Part shown: in pieces, positions 23,222 to 27,181 of the stretch
How positions within the stretch are numbered: position 1 is the first letter of the stretch
Layout of the letters: every line of letters starts with the position of its first letter
DNA from: Bradyrhizobium sp. AZCC 1693
GTDB taxonomy: Bacteria > Pseudomonadota > Alphaproteobacteria > Rhizobiales > Xanthobacteraceae
NCBI RefSeq assembly: GCF_036924745.1
Contig: NZ_JAZHSD010000001.1
Span: 806,001-870,000 of the forward strand
Length of the DNA stretch: 64,000 nucleotides
Direction: 5' to 3'
Made by a program: the position numbers and the translations under genes
Notes under the pieces: generated by a model
What the model was told of the DNA's origin: nothing
The model's input: only the letters and a program-made list of their open reading frames with translations
Database searches by the model: none

Positions 23222-23455
23222 TTTCAATCCCTCAGTCCAAAAGCGTCAAATCTGATCGCTCTAACGATGCGCGAGCACCCGATTCCCAAAACCCAGTATC
23301 GTGACTATACGCAGTTCAGCCCAAAAAGCTGTTGCGGGGGGAACACAGCCTCCGGAAAACGAATGACCGGGAAATGCCCGAAAAAAGGGCAAATTCGGGC
23401 GCTAACCGGCCCGAAAATGCCGGAAATTGCCCGAAAGTCGCCTCTCAGGGTGAAA

Positions 23456-23581
23456 TCAGACGGTCCAGCAGGTCGTCGCTGGCGAATTCCGCCTCGTCGG
23501 AGATGAAGGCGAACCGGGCCTCGGCCTTGGTTCCCATCAGCCGCTCGACAGAATCGGGGGTGCCTTCGCGGTCGTCGGCCA
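23456..23581 (-). repeat. parE 3'-end duplicate, copy A
   Basis: About 126 bp match the last 41 codons of the true parE (25127-25251) with five differences by eye, one of them an inserted G at 23462-23463 that removes the normal ending. It encodes ADDREGTPDSVERLMGTKA in the parE frame. At two positions where A and B agree (GGTCGTCG and CCGGGCC), true parE differs (GCTCGTCG and CCGAGCC). It has no start codon or upstream parE, so it is an untranslated remnant. It marks the left end of toxin-antitoxin unit 1. Confidence 0.88.
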
Positions 23582-23653
23582 GCAGCATGGGGTCGCGGGT
23601 ACCCGGCTCATTGTCTCGCCAGAGACCGATCATTTGTACGCTGCTTGAATTTC

Positions 23654-23669
23654 GTATAAAATCTTATAC
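23654..23669. promoter_or_regulatory. Palindromic operator of toxin-antitoxin module 1
   Basis: GTATAA (23654-23659), spacer AATC, TTATAC (23664-23669): perfect 6-bp arms. It ends 12 bp before the toxin ATG and contains a TATAAAAT-like -10. The site suits autorepression by the XRE antitoxin. Confidence 0.65.
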
Positions 23670-23681
23670 ACGGAACTTGTC

Positions 23682-24026
23682 ATGGGGCAGGAAAAGGAGA
23701 TTCGCTGGCTAGGCTCGGCCTATGAGGATTTGCTGGCGTTTCCCGATGATGCTCGCCGCCAGGCGGGTTTCCAGTTGGGCAAGGTGCAAGCGGCATTGGA
23801 GCCTGATGACTGGAAGCCCTTCGACGACATCGGCCCGGGCACACGGGAAATCCGATCCGCGAGGCGAGCGGAACCTACGGGGTTGATGTATGTCGCCAAG
23901 TTCGAGGAAGCTGTGTACGTCCTGCATTGTTTCCAGAAGAAGACACAGGCGACGAGCCGGCGGGACAAGGCCATCGCCGAGACTCGCTACCGAGCCGTGG
24001 TCAACACGCGAAAGGTCGGGAAATGA
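23682..24026 (+). CDS. RelE/HigB-superfamily toxin, phage Gp49-like (module 1)
   Basis: A 114-residue basic protein with the Gp49/DUF891 signature: IRWLGSAYEDLLAFPDDARR near the N-terminus, then REIRSARRAEPTGLMYVAKF and YVLHCFQKKTQATSRRD. Members of this RelE-related family cleave mRNA on the ribosome. ATG 23682 lies just after the palindromic operator. The stop overlaps the antitoxin ATG (ATGA), a toxin-first order typical of HigBA. The reading frame is complete and key basic residues remain, so this is the one toxin in the window that looks functional. Confidence 0.88.
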   Translation: MGQEKEIRWLGSAYEDLLAFPDDARRQAGFQLGKVQAALEPDDWKPFDDIGPGTREIRSARRAEPTGLMYVAKFEEAVYVLHCFQKKTQATSRRDKAIAETRYRAVVNTRKVGK

Positions 24027-24355
24027 AGATTGATGCCGAAATCCGTCATGTGACGAAGCCGGGGACGAACATCTTCCTGGAGCTGGGGTTCTCGCCGGCG
24101 GAGGCCAAACGCCTGCAAGCGGCTTCGCGCAAGCAGATCAACGACACCAGACGGCTCAAAGAGCAATTGATGACCGAACTGGCGGCGTGGATCGGAAAAC
24201 ACCACCTCAAACAGGCCGAGGCTGCAGACATTTTGATGGTCTCGCGGCCTCGGGTATCCGACGTGGTGAACAAGAAGGCCTCGAAGTTTACCATCGACAC
24301 GCTAGTGGAGATGCTCAGTCGCGTCGGCAAGCCGGTCAAACTGACCGTGGATTGA
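24023..24355 (+). CDS. XRE-family antitoxin, HigA-like (module 1)
   Basis: A 110-residue antitoxin/repressor. The start is set by the ATGA overlap with the toxin gene. The C-terminal half is a helix-turn-helix: LKQAEAADILMVSRPRVSDV then NKKASKFTIDTLVEMLSRVG. The first 45 residues probably wrap around the toxin. It should bind the palindrome at 23654-23669 and repress the operon. A hairpin follows 10 bp after the stop. Confidence 0.87.
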   Translation: MKIDAEIRHVTKPGTNIFLELGFSPAEAKRLQAASRKQINDTRRLKEQLMTELAAWIGKHHLKQAEAADILMVSRPRVSDVVNKKASKFTIDTLVEMLSRVGKPVKLTVD

Positions 24356-24364
24356 AAACGCCGT

Positions 24365-24398
24365 TAAGCCCCCGTCATGGCAATGACGGAAGGGCTTA
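24365..24398 (+). terminator. Long hairpin after toxin-antitoxin module 1
   Basis: Stem TAAGCCC-CCGTCAT (24365-24378) against ATGACGG-A-GGGCTTA (24383-24398), loop GGCA. There is no T-run, so termination is uncertain. It lies between the antitoxin stop and parE copy B, and could instead be structural at the element boundary. Confidence 0.5.
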
Positions 24399-24406
24399 GC
24401 CCTTAC

Positions 24407-24496
24407 GCTCACACGTCCAGCAGGTCGTCGCTGGCGAATTCCGCCTTGTCGGAGATGAAGGCGAACCGGGCCTCGGCCTTGGTTCCCATCGGCCGC
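24407..24496 (-). repeat. parE 3'-end duplicate, copy B
   Basis: About 90 bp match the last 28-30 codons of true parE at 25125-25214 with four differences by eye. Unlike copy A it keeps the correct ending, LLDV then TGA. It shares with copy A the GGTCGTCG and CCGGGCC variants not found in true parE. It separates module 1 from module 2 and lies directly before the module 2 promoter. Confidence 0.88.
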
Positions 24497-24526
24497 GTAT
24501 ACCGCCTGACGTAGTATGAATTTGCC

Positions 24527-24813
24527 ATGATCCGATCGTGGCGGAACACGGCAACCCGGAAGGTTGGGAAGGCCATTCTTCGAATCAGTTGCGCGGTCTC
24601 GACGTCGATACCGCAGTTGATTTGTTATTGGCGCTCAACGTCGCCAAGAGCCTCCAAGATCTCAGTCCGCTGCGGAGCGTCGGATTGCACAAATTGAAAG
24701 GCGCCCGGAAGAAGCAGTGGGCCATGACGGTGAATGACCGCTGGCGCATCTGCTTCGAATTCCGCGCGGGCGATGCTTTCGACGTCGAGATCGTCGACTA
24801 CCATAAGGGTTAA
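24527..24813 (+). pseudogene. higB: HigB-type toxin with apparent frameshift (module 2)
   Basis: ATG 24527 opens MIRSWRNTATRKV, the expected N-terminus of host-inhibition-of-growth toxins, but the frame is lost at 24564-24565. The rest, WEGHSSNQLRGLDVDTAVDL through VDYHKG, continues in another frame to a stop at 24811-24813. One missing T in AGGTTGGG restores a full 95-residue HigB. A GTG at 24538 in the downstream frame would give a 91-residue variant with an altered N-terminus; activity would be doubtful. Key features such as QWAMTVNDRWRICFEF are intact. Either a decayed toxin or a base-calling error. Confidence 0.75.
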
Positions 24814-24816
24814 GAC

Positions 24817-25104
24817 ATGGCTCCCGCGATCCATCCAGGCCGGCTTCTGAAGCGCGAACTCGAAGCCCGCAAGCTCACTGCCAATCGTTTGGCGCTGGAC
24901 CTCGGCGTCCCGTCGGGGCGAATCACCGACATTCTCAATGGAAGGCGCTCGATATCGGCAGATACGGCCGTGCGGCTGGGCCGCTATTTCGGCAACAATC
25001 CGCAGTTCTGGCTCGATTTGCAGGGTCAGTACGATATTGCCGTGATTGAACGGGACAAGGGGGCCGACATCAGCAGGCGGGTCAGGCCCGCAGATGCGGC
25101 GTGA
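24817..25104 (+). CDS. higA: HigA-family antitoxin (module 2)
   Basis: A 95-residue XRE antitoxin. MAPAIHPGRLLKRELEARKL opens the HigA/VapI pattern, and LALDLGVPSGRITDILNGRR is the helix-turn-helix, followed by LGRYFGNNPQFWLDLQGQYD, diagnostic of HigA. It starts 3 bp after the toxin stop with AAGGGTT as ribosome-binding site. The gene is intact although its toxin partner appears frameshifted. It ends 22 bp from the convergent parE stop. Confidence 0.9.
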   Translation: MAPAIHPGRLLKRELEARKLTANRLALDLGVPSGRITDILNGRRSISADTAVRLGRYFGNNPQFWLDLQGQYDIAVIERDKGADISRRVRPADAA

Positions 25105-25126
25105 AAGGCCCGCGTCCTGCCCGTGC

Positions 25127-27181
25127 TCAGACGTCCAGCAGCTCGTCGCTGGCGAATTCCGCCTTGTCGGAGATGAAGGCGAACCGAGCCTCGGCCTTGG
25201 TTCCCATCAGCCGCTCGACAGAATCGGCGGTGCCTTCGCGGTCGTCGGCCATAAGCACCACGCGGAGCAGCGTGCGCCTGGCCGGGTCCATAGTGGTTTC
25301 CTTGAGCTGCGCCGGCATCATCTCGCCCAGGCCTTTGAAGCGGCCGACATCGACCTTGGCGTTGGCGTTGAACTCGTTCTTCAGCAGCGTGTCCTTGTGG
25401 GCTTCGTCGCGGGCGTAAACCGTCTTGGCGCCATGGGTGAGGCGATAGAGCGGCGGCACCGCCAGATAGAGATGCCCCTCGTCGATCAGCCGTGGCGTCT
25501 GCCGGTAGAAGAACGTGATCAGGAGCGAGGCGATATGCGCGCCGTCGACGTCGGCGTCGGTCATGATGATGATGCGGGAATAGCGCAGATCTTCTTCGCG
25601 ATAATGCGCGAGCGTTCCGCAGCCGATCGCCTGCATCAGATCGGCGAGCTGCGCGTTCGCCGTCAGCTTGTCCTTGCCGGCGGAGGCGACGTTGAGAATT
25701 TTTCCGCGCAACGGCAGCACCGCCTGGGTCTTGCGGTCGCGCGCCTGCTTTGCGCTGCCGCCGGCCGAGTCGCCTTCAACGATGAAGAGTTCGGAGCCTT
25801 CGGTCGCCGTGTTGGTGCAGTCGGCGAGCTTGCCGGGAAGCCGCAGCTTCTTCACGGCGGTCTTGCGTGAAGTTTCCTTCTCGGCGCGACGGCGCAGCCG
25901 TTCGTCGGCGCGCTCGATGACGAAATCCAGGAGCTTGTTGGCCTGCAGCGGATTGCCCGACAGCCAGTGATCGAACGGATCCTTGATCGCCTGTTCGACG
26001 ATCTTCTGGGCTTCCGCGGTGGCAAGGCGGTCCTTGGTCTGGCCCTGGAATTCCGGCTCGCGCACGAACACCGAGAGCATGACGGCAGCTCCCACCATGA
26101 CGTCTTCCGAGGTGATGGGGGCGGCGCGCTTGCCCTGGCCGATGCGCTCGGCGTGGTCCTTCAGGCCGCGCAGCATCGCGCTGCGCATGCCGGACTCGTG
26201 CGTGCCGCCGTCGGGCGTCGGCACCGTGTTGCAATAGGAGGAGAGGAAGCCGTCGGCATCCGCCGTCCAGGCGACCGCCCATTCGCAGGCGCCATGGGCG
26301 CCGTTGCGGCCCGATTTGCCGGAGAAGATATCCGGATGCACCAGCGTGTCGGCGTGGATGGCGGCGCCGAGATAATCCTTCAGGCCGCCCGGGAAGTGGA
26401 AACTATCCTCGGCCGGCACATCCTCGATGCCCTTCAACAGCGCGGGATCGCAGCGCCAGCGAATCTCGACGCCACCGAACAGGTAGGCTTTCGAGCGCGT
26501 CATCTTGAACAGGCGCTGCGGCTTGAAGGCGGCCTTGGCGCCGAAGATGTCGGTGTCGGGCTTGAAGCGGATGCGGGTGCCGCGGCGGTTGTTGATCTTG
26601 CCGAGGTCTTCGATCTTTCCCTTCGGATGGCCGCGCTCGAAACTCATTCGGTAGAGCTTCTGGCTGCGCGCGACTTCGACCTCGAGACGTGAGGAGAGGG
26701 CGTTGACGACGGAGACGCCGACGCCGTGCAGGCCGCCCGAGGTCTCGTAGACCTTGGAATCGAACTTGCCGCCGGAATGCAGCGTGCACATGATGACTTC
26801 GAGCGCGGATTTTTTCGGAAATTTCGGATGCGGATCGACCGGGATGCCACGGCCGTTATCGGTGACGGTCAGAAAACCGGCGGCGCCCAATTCGACTTCG
26901 ATGAACGAGGCATGCCCCGCCAGCGCCTCGTCCATGGCGTTGTCGATGACTTCGGCGAACAGGTGATGCAGCGCCTTTTCGTCGGTTCCGCCGATGTACA
27001 TGCCGGGGCGGCGGCGCACCGGCTCCAATCCTTCCAGCACCTCGATGTCGGCCGCGGTATAGCCGGCCTCGGCGCTGGTCGCCCGCGACGCCGCCTTGGG
27101 CGCCGCGCGGCCCTTCGGTTCCGCCCCGAAGAGGTCGTTGGCTGATTTCGGTTTTGTAGCTGATTTCAATGACTTGGACAT
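25127..27181 (-). CDS. parE: DNA topoisomerase IV subunit B
   Basis: ParE is the ATPase subunit of topoisomerase IV, which decatenates daughter chromosomes. The 684-residue protein has the GHKL ATP site (EVIDNAMDEALAG, VTDNGRGIPVD, TSGGLHGVGVSVVNAL), the transducer domain, and the TOPRIM motifs EGDSAGGSAKQARDR and MTDADVDGAHIA. KQARDR rather than KQGRNR favours ParE over GyrB. The first 35 residues are a low-complexity leader. ATG 27181. Its last 125 bp are the sequence duplicated at 23456-23581 and, in part, 24407-24496. It carries slightly different bases from those copies, so the present terminus may have been exchanged. Confidence 0.95.
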   Translation of the reverse strand: MSKSLKSATKPKSANDLFGAEPKGRAAPKAASRATSAEAGYTAADIEVLEGLEPVRRRPGMYIGGTDEKALHHLFAEVIDNAMDEALAGHASFIEVELGAAGFLTVTDNGRGIPVDPHPKFPKKSALEVIMCTLHSGGKFDSKVYETSGGLHGVGVSVVNALSSRLEVEVARSQKLYRMSFERGHPKGKIEDLGKINNRRGTRIRFKPDTDIFGAKAAFKPQRLFKMTRSKAYLFGGVEIRWRCDPALLKGIEDVPAEDSFHFPGGLKDYLGAAIHADTLVHPDIFSGKSGRNGAHGACEWAVAWTADADGFLSSYCNTVPTPDGGTHESGMRSAMLRGLKDHAERIGQGKRAAPITSEDVMVGAAVMLSVFVREPEFQGQTKDRLATAEAQKIVEQAIKDPFDHWLSGNPLQANKLLDFVIERADERLRRRAEKETSRKTAVKKLRLPGKLADCTNTATEGSELFIVEGDSAGGSAKQARDRKTQAVLPLRGKILNVASAGKDKLTANAQLADLMQAIGCGTLAHYREEDLRYSRIIIMTDADVDGAHIASLLITFFYRQTPRLIDEGHLYLAVPPLYRLTHGAKTVYARDEAHKDTLLKNEFNANAKVDVGRFKGLGEMMPAQLKETTMDPARRTLLRVVLMADDREGTADSVERLMGTKAEARFAFISDKAEFASDELLDV

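Follow-up and report, generated by a model that had tools for sequence, protein, structure and literature searches.

Displaced gene tails flanking toxin-antitoxin genes at parE and other loci suggest a simple, integrase-free route of spread

How does an essential bacterial gene come to be followed by two further copies of its own 3' end, with a pair of small genes lying in each interval? The question is raised by parE, encoding topoisomerase IV subunit B, in a 64,000-nucleotide (nt) stretch of Bradyrhizobium sp. AZCC 1693 (contig NZ_JAZHSD010000001.1, positions 806,001 to 870,000), hereafter the window. A first-pass annotation had described two toxin-antitoxin (TA) units stacked behind parE, each with a copy of the parE terminus, and had proposed a small cassette that uses parE as its target. 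The threefold occurrence of the terminus was confirmed through repeat searches and a search of the own genome, with refined limits, and the locus is laid out as follows (window coordinates).

25127..27181, minus strand: parE, 684 amino acids; TIGR01055 match of 772 bits, above the cut-off
25127..25257, minus strand: present, probably newest, parE terminus, the reference for both copies (repeat and genome search)
25105..25126: spacer of 22 nt from the HigA stop to the parE stop
24817..25104, plus strand: predicted module B antitoxin, HigA family (TIGR02607, 84 bits)
24538..24813, plus strand: predicted module B toxin, HigB-like (partial PF05015 match; open reading frame (ORF) list)
24409..24496, minus strand: copy B, a putative displaced parE terminus of 88 nt (repeat search and alignment)
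24023..24355, plus strand: predicted module A antitoxin, HTH_37 (PF13744)
23682..24026, plus strand: predicted module A toxin, Gp49-like (PF05973)
23456..23587, minus strand: copy A, the native parE terminus, putatively displaced; 131 nt and an inserted base
23401..23455: native parE flank beyond copy A (BLAST against single-ended relatives, and alignment)

By profile match and alignment parE is intact, its old 3' end having been displaced. Matches to its terminus in the 7.6 Mb, single-contig genome, where the best 40 of 52 candidates were scored, are the true end, copy A (95% identity, E 4e-53) and copy B (95%, E 3.7e-34) only, all three inside the window. Both modules had been called HigBA-type; both are indeed predicted TA pairs, but they appear to belong to different families and only module B is HigBA proper. 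Its HigA lies well above the curated cut-off (84 against 47.7 bits, TIGR02607), while its HigB is incomplete, matching only positions 32-91 of the 91 in the PF05015 profile, and the start of the frame appears interrupted. Three further HigB-like loci are found elsewhere in the genome.

Relatives without the modules reveal what the site looked like before. A match to the parE end was obtained in 261 of 265 genomes of the genus, and in 42 of these, the own genome included, there was more than one. Most second matches covered query positions 1-67, lay at other loci and were taken by position as gyrB; those in G005, G171, G192, G194 and G201 (G and L numbers are our handles for genomes and loci) were short, 27-46 nt, and lay elsewhere in the query. 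G202 had its second match on a separate contig, and G229 an extra copy at a contig edge; the second parE of G013, near both ends of one contig and with like flanks, was interpreted as an overlap in the assembly. Only the own genome and G233 had a resolved second terminus next to parE, with a module between the ends in each. No relative with copies and without modules was thus seen among the 261 matching genomes, in which weak extra copies could escape, as genus searches for the parE end and the modules scored two or three candidates per genome (three for the parE end, up to 19 in the multi-match follow-up). When positions 23401-23640 were compared by BLAST with L005-L033 (without L014), the flank of copy A aligned directly behind parE in 24 of the 28 single-ended relatives, the exceptions being L025, L031, L032 and L033. 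The empty sites that the first-pass annotation had suggested seeking therefore exist. Since relatives without modules join parE to the flank behind copy A, this copy sits at the position of the native end, and appears to be the displaced native end itself.

Allele comparisons point in the same direction. Two bases had been noted as common to copies A and B and different in the true end, and they are real, lying 15 and 60 nt before the end. Both copies have C at both sites, as do 19 and 21 of 34 single-ended relatives, respectively, whereas the true end has G at the first (11 of 34) and T at the second (0 of 34). The true end is unusual at 125 nt too, where copy A again has the common allele. 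Copy A further contains its inserted base and two changes absent from all 38 relatives compared, as expected of an older fragment, so that module A would have arrived first and module B second, nearer parE. The suggestion that A and B are displaced older ends is thereby supported, and the present terminus looks like a newcomer. A mosaic scan of the parE body shows the closest relative changing along the gene, with no single one closest throughout.

The one related case at parE is the most informative. G233 carries module B at 97% identity, compared with 94.8% for the parE body, and in it the module lies between the true end and a displaced end of 233 nt, so that the joint differs from that in the window (88 nt). 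The two G233 ends differ at 13 sites, at 11 of which both alleles occur among the 34 single-ended relatives. Random substitution would lead one to expect a fraction of 0.20 (p 1e-6 against this value), or 0.25 with transitions weighted. Six sites 147-222 nt before the stop show the base of most of the four closest relatives in the true end and another base in the displaced end; sites 45, 15 and 14 show the opposite arrangement. At sites 1 and 0 it is the displaced end that agrees with the majority among the 34 relatives. The two ends thus look like reciprocal hybrids, the pattern of one crossover. The module B toxin of G233 (L034 6240-6540) lacks an intact frame, the longest plus-strand ORFs being of 73 codons, in another frame, and 42 codons; both known parE-linked copies of module B look worn.

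The proposal of a cassette that uses parE as target was not supported, as several genes unrelated to one another bear this footprint, around TA genes of several families. Within Bradyrhizobium, displaced tails were found for an AAA_21 ATPase gene (G230; 67 nt, 100% identity, the repeat comprising the gene end and a HigB fragment), a gene weakly like sugar epimerases with a Gp49/HTH_37 module (G180; 75 nt, 87%), a class-III aminotransferase gene (G171; 142 nt, 98.6%) and a 1259-codon ORF (G153; 131 nt, 95%). Other cases come from bins labelled Rhizobium, Hyphomicrobiales, Reyranellaceae, Proteobacteria and Magnetococcales: HigB and HigA lie between the tails of ribD (L327), anmK (L339) and the gene for an NAD(P)-binding Fe-S protein (L342), and HigA between those of an amidase gene (L332). 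Rhodanese-type tails enclose a ParE-type toxin at L330 and, by eye, DUF4258 cargo at L326. The anmK locus has three gene ends, with HigBA between the first two and DUF2442, DUF4160 and DUF433 genes before the third, and so repeats the architecture of the window, three gene ends and two units. In 12 pairs of true and displaced ends, the distance from the start of the copy to the gene end ranges from 67 to 244 nt. Displaced parE ends alone measure 131, 88 and 233 nt, break distances that speak against a fixed core site in parE. At the aminotransferase site of G171, the displaced end is immediately followed by HepT-like and nucleotidyltransferase genes of the type VII TA kind (L153 5397-6039); they probably constitute a second TA unit there.

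Were the repeats made by recent copying, or did both evolve as genes? For the same 12 pairs, 91 differences between true and displaced ends fall at codon positions 1, 2 and 3 in the numbers 14, 17 and 60 (p 2e-10 against one third), a count that omits 14 differences lying 12 nt or less from the joint, as well as 4 gap columns, and includes two anmK copies that are not independent. The rhodanese pairs, kept apart from the pool, have 8 of 12 and 7 of 11 differences at third positions, and in G153 each of the six substitutions from 120 nt onward is a third-position change (five of five in the pooled count). Selection on the true copy alone would also yield some bias of this kind; the pattern is support, short of proof, for the view that each end had evolved as a functional gene tail before the two met. 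In our interpretation the copies are diverged natural alleles.

Possible donors, in the sense of genomes with a TA operon directly behind the same gene and no repeat, were also found. A HigA relative stands tail-to-tail with parE in four of 80 named loci, all Rhodopseudomonas (L270, L271, L272 and L290), with HigB beside it in the last three and not detected in L270. By eye, the 22-nt spacer at 25105..25126 resembles the parE-HigA spacer of Rhodopseudomonas rhenobacensis (L270) in both length and sequence. HigA lies 6-15 nt behind the aminotransferase stop, with no gene-end repeat, in six of 29 other best-matching loci, all from Bradyrhizobium (L242, L245, L251 as a remnant, L254, L258 and L267; HigB in four, not in L242 or L251), and at L249 HigBA lies further off behind the same gene. 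Of 235 locus records, some of which overlap in part, 35 have an AAA_21 gene followed within 1.5 kb by a HigA or HigB match, two of the 35 being from G230 itself. For the G153 gene the empty state was recovered, the displaced flank lying no more than 100 nt from the gene end in 12 of 29 relatives, with HigA or HigB detected in none of the 29. Two side observations may be recorded here. The AAA_21 ATPase gene often directly precedes HigBA of the module B type (e.g. L045, L047, L060, L274, L302), as if in a three-gene unit. In Nitrospira-type bins (L341 5001-7409, L340, L343) a parE/gyrB-like gene (43% identity) has a HigA relative no more than about 4 kb away, at about 200 nt in L341.

The reading we favour, to which we would give about an even chance of being right, is that a short piece of DNA from a related bacterium, comprising a gene end and a TA operon, was joined at the 3' end of the gene by host homologous recombination. 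The donor would already have had the operon directly behind the same gene, and the incoming piece would have consisted of the operon plus the last 67-244 nt of that gene. Joining would have taken place at the recipient gene's own 3' end, most simply through one crossover of a circularised piece (Campbell type). The gene would thereby remain complete but end in a new tail, and its former tail, truncated on the 5' side, would come to lie on the far side of the operon. Two such events would account for parE, the first bringing module A and the second, closer to the gene, module B. Recombination between the flanking repeats could later excise the operon; if its toxin and antitoxin are both functional, the toxin would punish the loss, and this may explain why the footprint was found around TA genes. 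We prefer homology-anchored entry of donor DNA because it explains the empty sites, the donor states, the variable joints and the hybrids, and it is chiefly the reciprocal pattern of G233 that leads us to a circle rather than a linear, one-sided event. The circular intermediate, the route of transfer and the role of addiction are parts of the scheme that we infer. End joining is plausible in this genome, in which two Ku genes are present. A study of E. coli (PMC3240628) describes linear DNA as either degraded or ligated into a circle and integrated by single crossing-over, and the addiction idea is in line with a stabilisation model for TA genes in super-integrons set out in passages of PMC2654758.

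Several observations weigh against this reading or parts of it. The clear reciprocal pattern is limited to one case, G233, where sites 75 and 33 are uninformative; by the same comparison with closest relatives G153 is partly reciprocal, and G171 and the own copies, each set against the true end, are ambiguous. The parE tails of Rhodopseudomonas differ from the present termini at many sites and are therefore not the direct source. No donor state was found among the 235 locus records for the G153 and G180 genes, ribD, the amidase gene, anmK or the Fe-S gene, and none for module A, for which the genus search gave 12 weak matches besides the own, none near parE by coordinates. The displaced fragment in G180 lacks the last 100 nt of the gene, so that a later deletion must be assumed, and the differences at L327 show no third-position bias (3, 7, 6). 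All confirmed copies are 3' ends, which the reading does not itself predict; a 3'-end bias of the footprint is our impression. Phage records gave no match to 23440-25330. Positions 24380-25330 matched 18 of 72,556 plasmid records, none covering 80% of the query, and the best 15 of the 18 matches are confined to query positions 781-951, at the end towards parE, with parE and gyrB the only features named. As to addiction, the toxin frame of module B is interrupted both here and in G233 and no HigB was detected at the amidase gene of L332, where HigA stands alone; addiction cannot hold these three units now. Finally, no firm figure for enrichment of the footprint around TA genes over other cargo has been established. 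In a first survey a straddling repeat was present at 14 of 155 TA records, compared with 23 of 1874 random positions, L042 and L072 being one locus; gene-end cases amounted to only five loci (L042/L072, L043, L083, L153, L198), and the criterion missed G230. A second survey gave six of 80, not clearly above the control (79 of 1828, 4.3%), and two of its loci, L302 and L293, repeat loci of the first.

Screens of gene ends covered 90 loci with 848 ends of each kind and 80 loci with 596 of each kind, the second missing anmK owing to an overlapping ORF. Rows at 5' ends with TA genes between proved to be repeats (L162, L175) or an ORF called on the other strand (L339), and L326 would be a 5' case only through an ORF on the other strand. 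Further 5' rows of the 90-locus screen are those at L135, L138, L147, L149, L164 and, twice, L206, where one stretch was looked at for its cargo; the repeats at L164 are not TA-related as far as they were followed. Other candidates were set aside as an interspersed repeat (L158, with TA genes between), as a short repeat (L185) or on length only (L046, L064, L110, L162). The repeats around HigBA at L087/L097, L121 and L175 represent a recurring genomic element and not gene ends. A recurring element that encodes, in one frame, the peptide VPIFIGRGAP flanks or neighbours HigBA at L097 (4392-4456 and 5296-5360, own genome), L121 and L175.

Other material was encountered at parE. The repeats behind parE in G137 were rejected as parE tails, being a repeated element with a HigA remnant; directly downstream of the gene there (L094 4660-5680) are the HigA remnant, a GIY-YIG-like fragment recognised by eye and three copies of the repeated element. 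Tandem duplications of about 1 kb lie directly downstream of parE in G155 (L092 3940-5950, 94%) and G065 (L093 3677-5632, 83%), each G155 repeat with an ORF of about 310 codons, which may correspond to the outer-membrane protein gene that lies downstream of parE in the own genome. A tRNA-Pro called by ARAGORN at window positions 27064-27138 falls within the coding sequence of parE and is probably a false positive.

Among other explanations the best survivor is homology-facilitated illegitimate recombination, in which linear donor DNA would pair homologously at one end and be joined non-homologously inside the recipient gene tail, making the displaced copy native and the true end donor-derived. 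Donor states and empty sites fit it equally well, the joints are variable as it would have them, and the own locus suits it, with a true end unusual at 125, 60 and 15 nt and common alleles in A (in B at 60 and 15). It has been proposed, in passages of PMC5361080, for stacked immunity genes of the type VI secretion system (T6SS). What tells against it is that the displaced copy, which should be native, departs from the closest relatives at G233 sites 147-222, where the true end does not, and again at G153 sites 99, 93 and 60 nt, site 96 being ambiguous. We regard it as possible though rather unlikely.

Somewhat more doubtful still is a long target duplication, in which a process linked to the module would cut the target and duplicate about 100 bp of the recipient's gene end, as for restriction-modification genes. 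An addiction-type cargo and direct repeats that vary in length around 100 bp (compare passages of PMC3874152 and PMC1643837) would suit such a process, as would the copies in G230 and G171, identical at 100% and 98.6%. Against it stand the neighbours in the donor state, the concentration of differences at third codon positions and the natural alleles, those of G233 and G153 arguing against both repeats being the recipient's own; natural foreign alleles are left unexplained if the recipient merely copied its own target.

Two further possibilities we consider very improbable. Integrase-bearing elements might have entered at an attachment site in the 3' end of parE and lost all but their TA genes, as remnants like cis-mobilisable elements (CIMEs), for which the 3'-end target, the intact gene and the tandem accretion would speak. 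The displaced parE lengths are, however, not one fixed length, several different genes were targeted, and no tyrosine integrase is near: the genome has 29 matches to PF00589, the recombinase family searched for, the nearest about 0.96 Mb away. The first-pass view of small units with no integrase nearby is to this extent supported, and variable joints, several targets and the absence of PF00589 nearby together make integrase action, and a parE-specific integrase in particular, unlikely. A within-genome tandem duplication of the gene end, with later TA capture or decay and no gene transfer, would suit the G230 repeat, which holds gene end and HigB fragment, and fares no better, since native flank and not TA sequence lies behind the displaced copy, module B is 97% identical between the own genome (G000) and G233 as against 94.8% for the parE body, and the G233 copies carry alleles of different lineages.

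To our knowledge it is an open question by what means small TA operons in chromosomes move in the absence of a transposase or integrase. The recurrent footprint suggests a simple, integrase-free spread. A wider version, which we advance tentatively and think improbable as a whole, is that TA operons are minimal mobile units with no recombinase of their own: circles of gene tail plus TA operon would integrate and excise at a conserved gene via host recombination, swap tails across species, stack, and be held by addiction until the toxin decays. Given a common footprint of this kind, in which the displaced tails begin 67-244 nt ahead of the stop, earlier insertions could be recognised in genome sequences. 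The footprint would show that conserved genes can swap ends with relatives as a by-product, and it offers a direct test of whether addiction preserves repeat-flanked cargo. In the titles and abstract openings of the open-licence papers searched, no description of TA genes with displaced gene tails was found.

How, then, does the footprint compare with known systems? CIMEs and similar elements at gene 3' ends also leave direct repeats of the 3' end and accrete in tandem; a fixed attachment core and an integrase are expected of them, and neither is seen here. Insertion of restriction-modification genes with long target duplication was reportedly described by Nobusato et al. in 2000 (Gene 259:99). 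Passages of PMC3874152 and PMC1643837 report that such genes, on insertion, duplicate long stretches of the target, around 100 bp and variable in length, and the likeness lies in the small addictive cargo, the variable direct repeats of about 100 bp and the empty sites in relatives. Here, unlike what those passages describe, the cargo is TA genes of several families, the repeats are gene 3' ends, the units are stacked, and the alleles suggest that one end is donor-derived and not copied at insertion. The single-crossover integration of circularised DNA in E. coli (PMC3240628) would yield the same product geometry, although that work concerns laboratory plasmids, with neither TA cargo nor a natural genome footprint. 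A further comparison is with the stacked T6SS immunity arrays of Vibrio cholerae, for which passages of PMC5361080 invoke a mechanism akin to homology-facilitated illegitimate recombination: there too, successive acquired modules push older material downstream and leave an array, but the displaced gene is the effector itself, whereas here the anchor is an unrelated gene, which stays intact.

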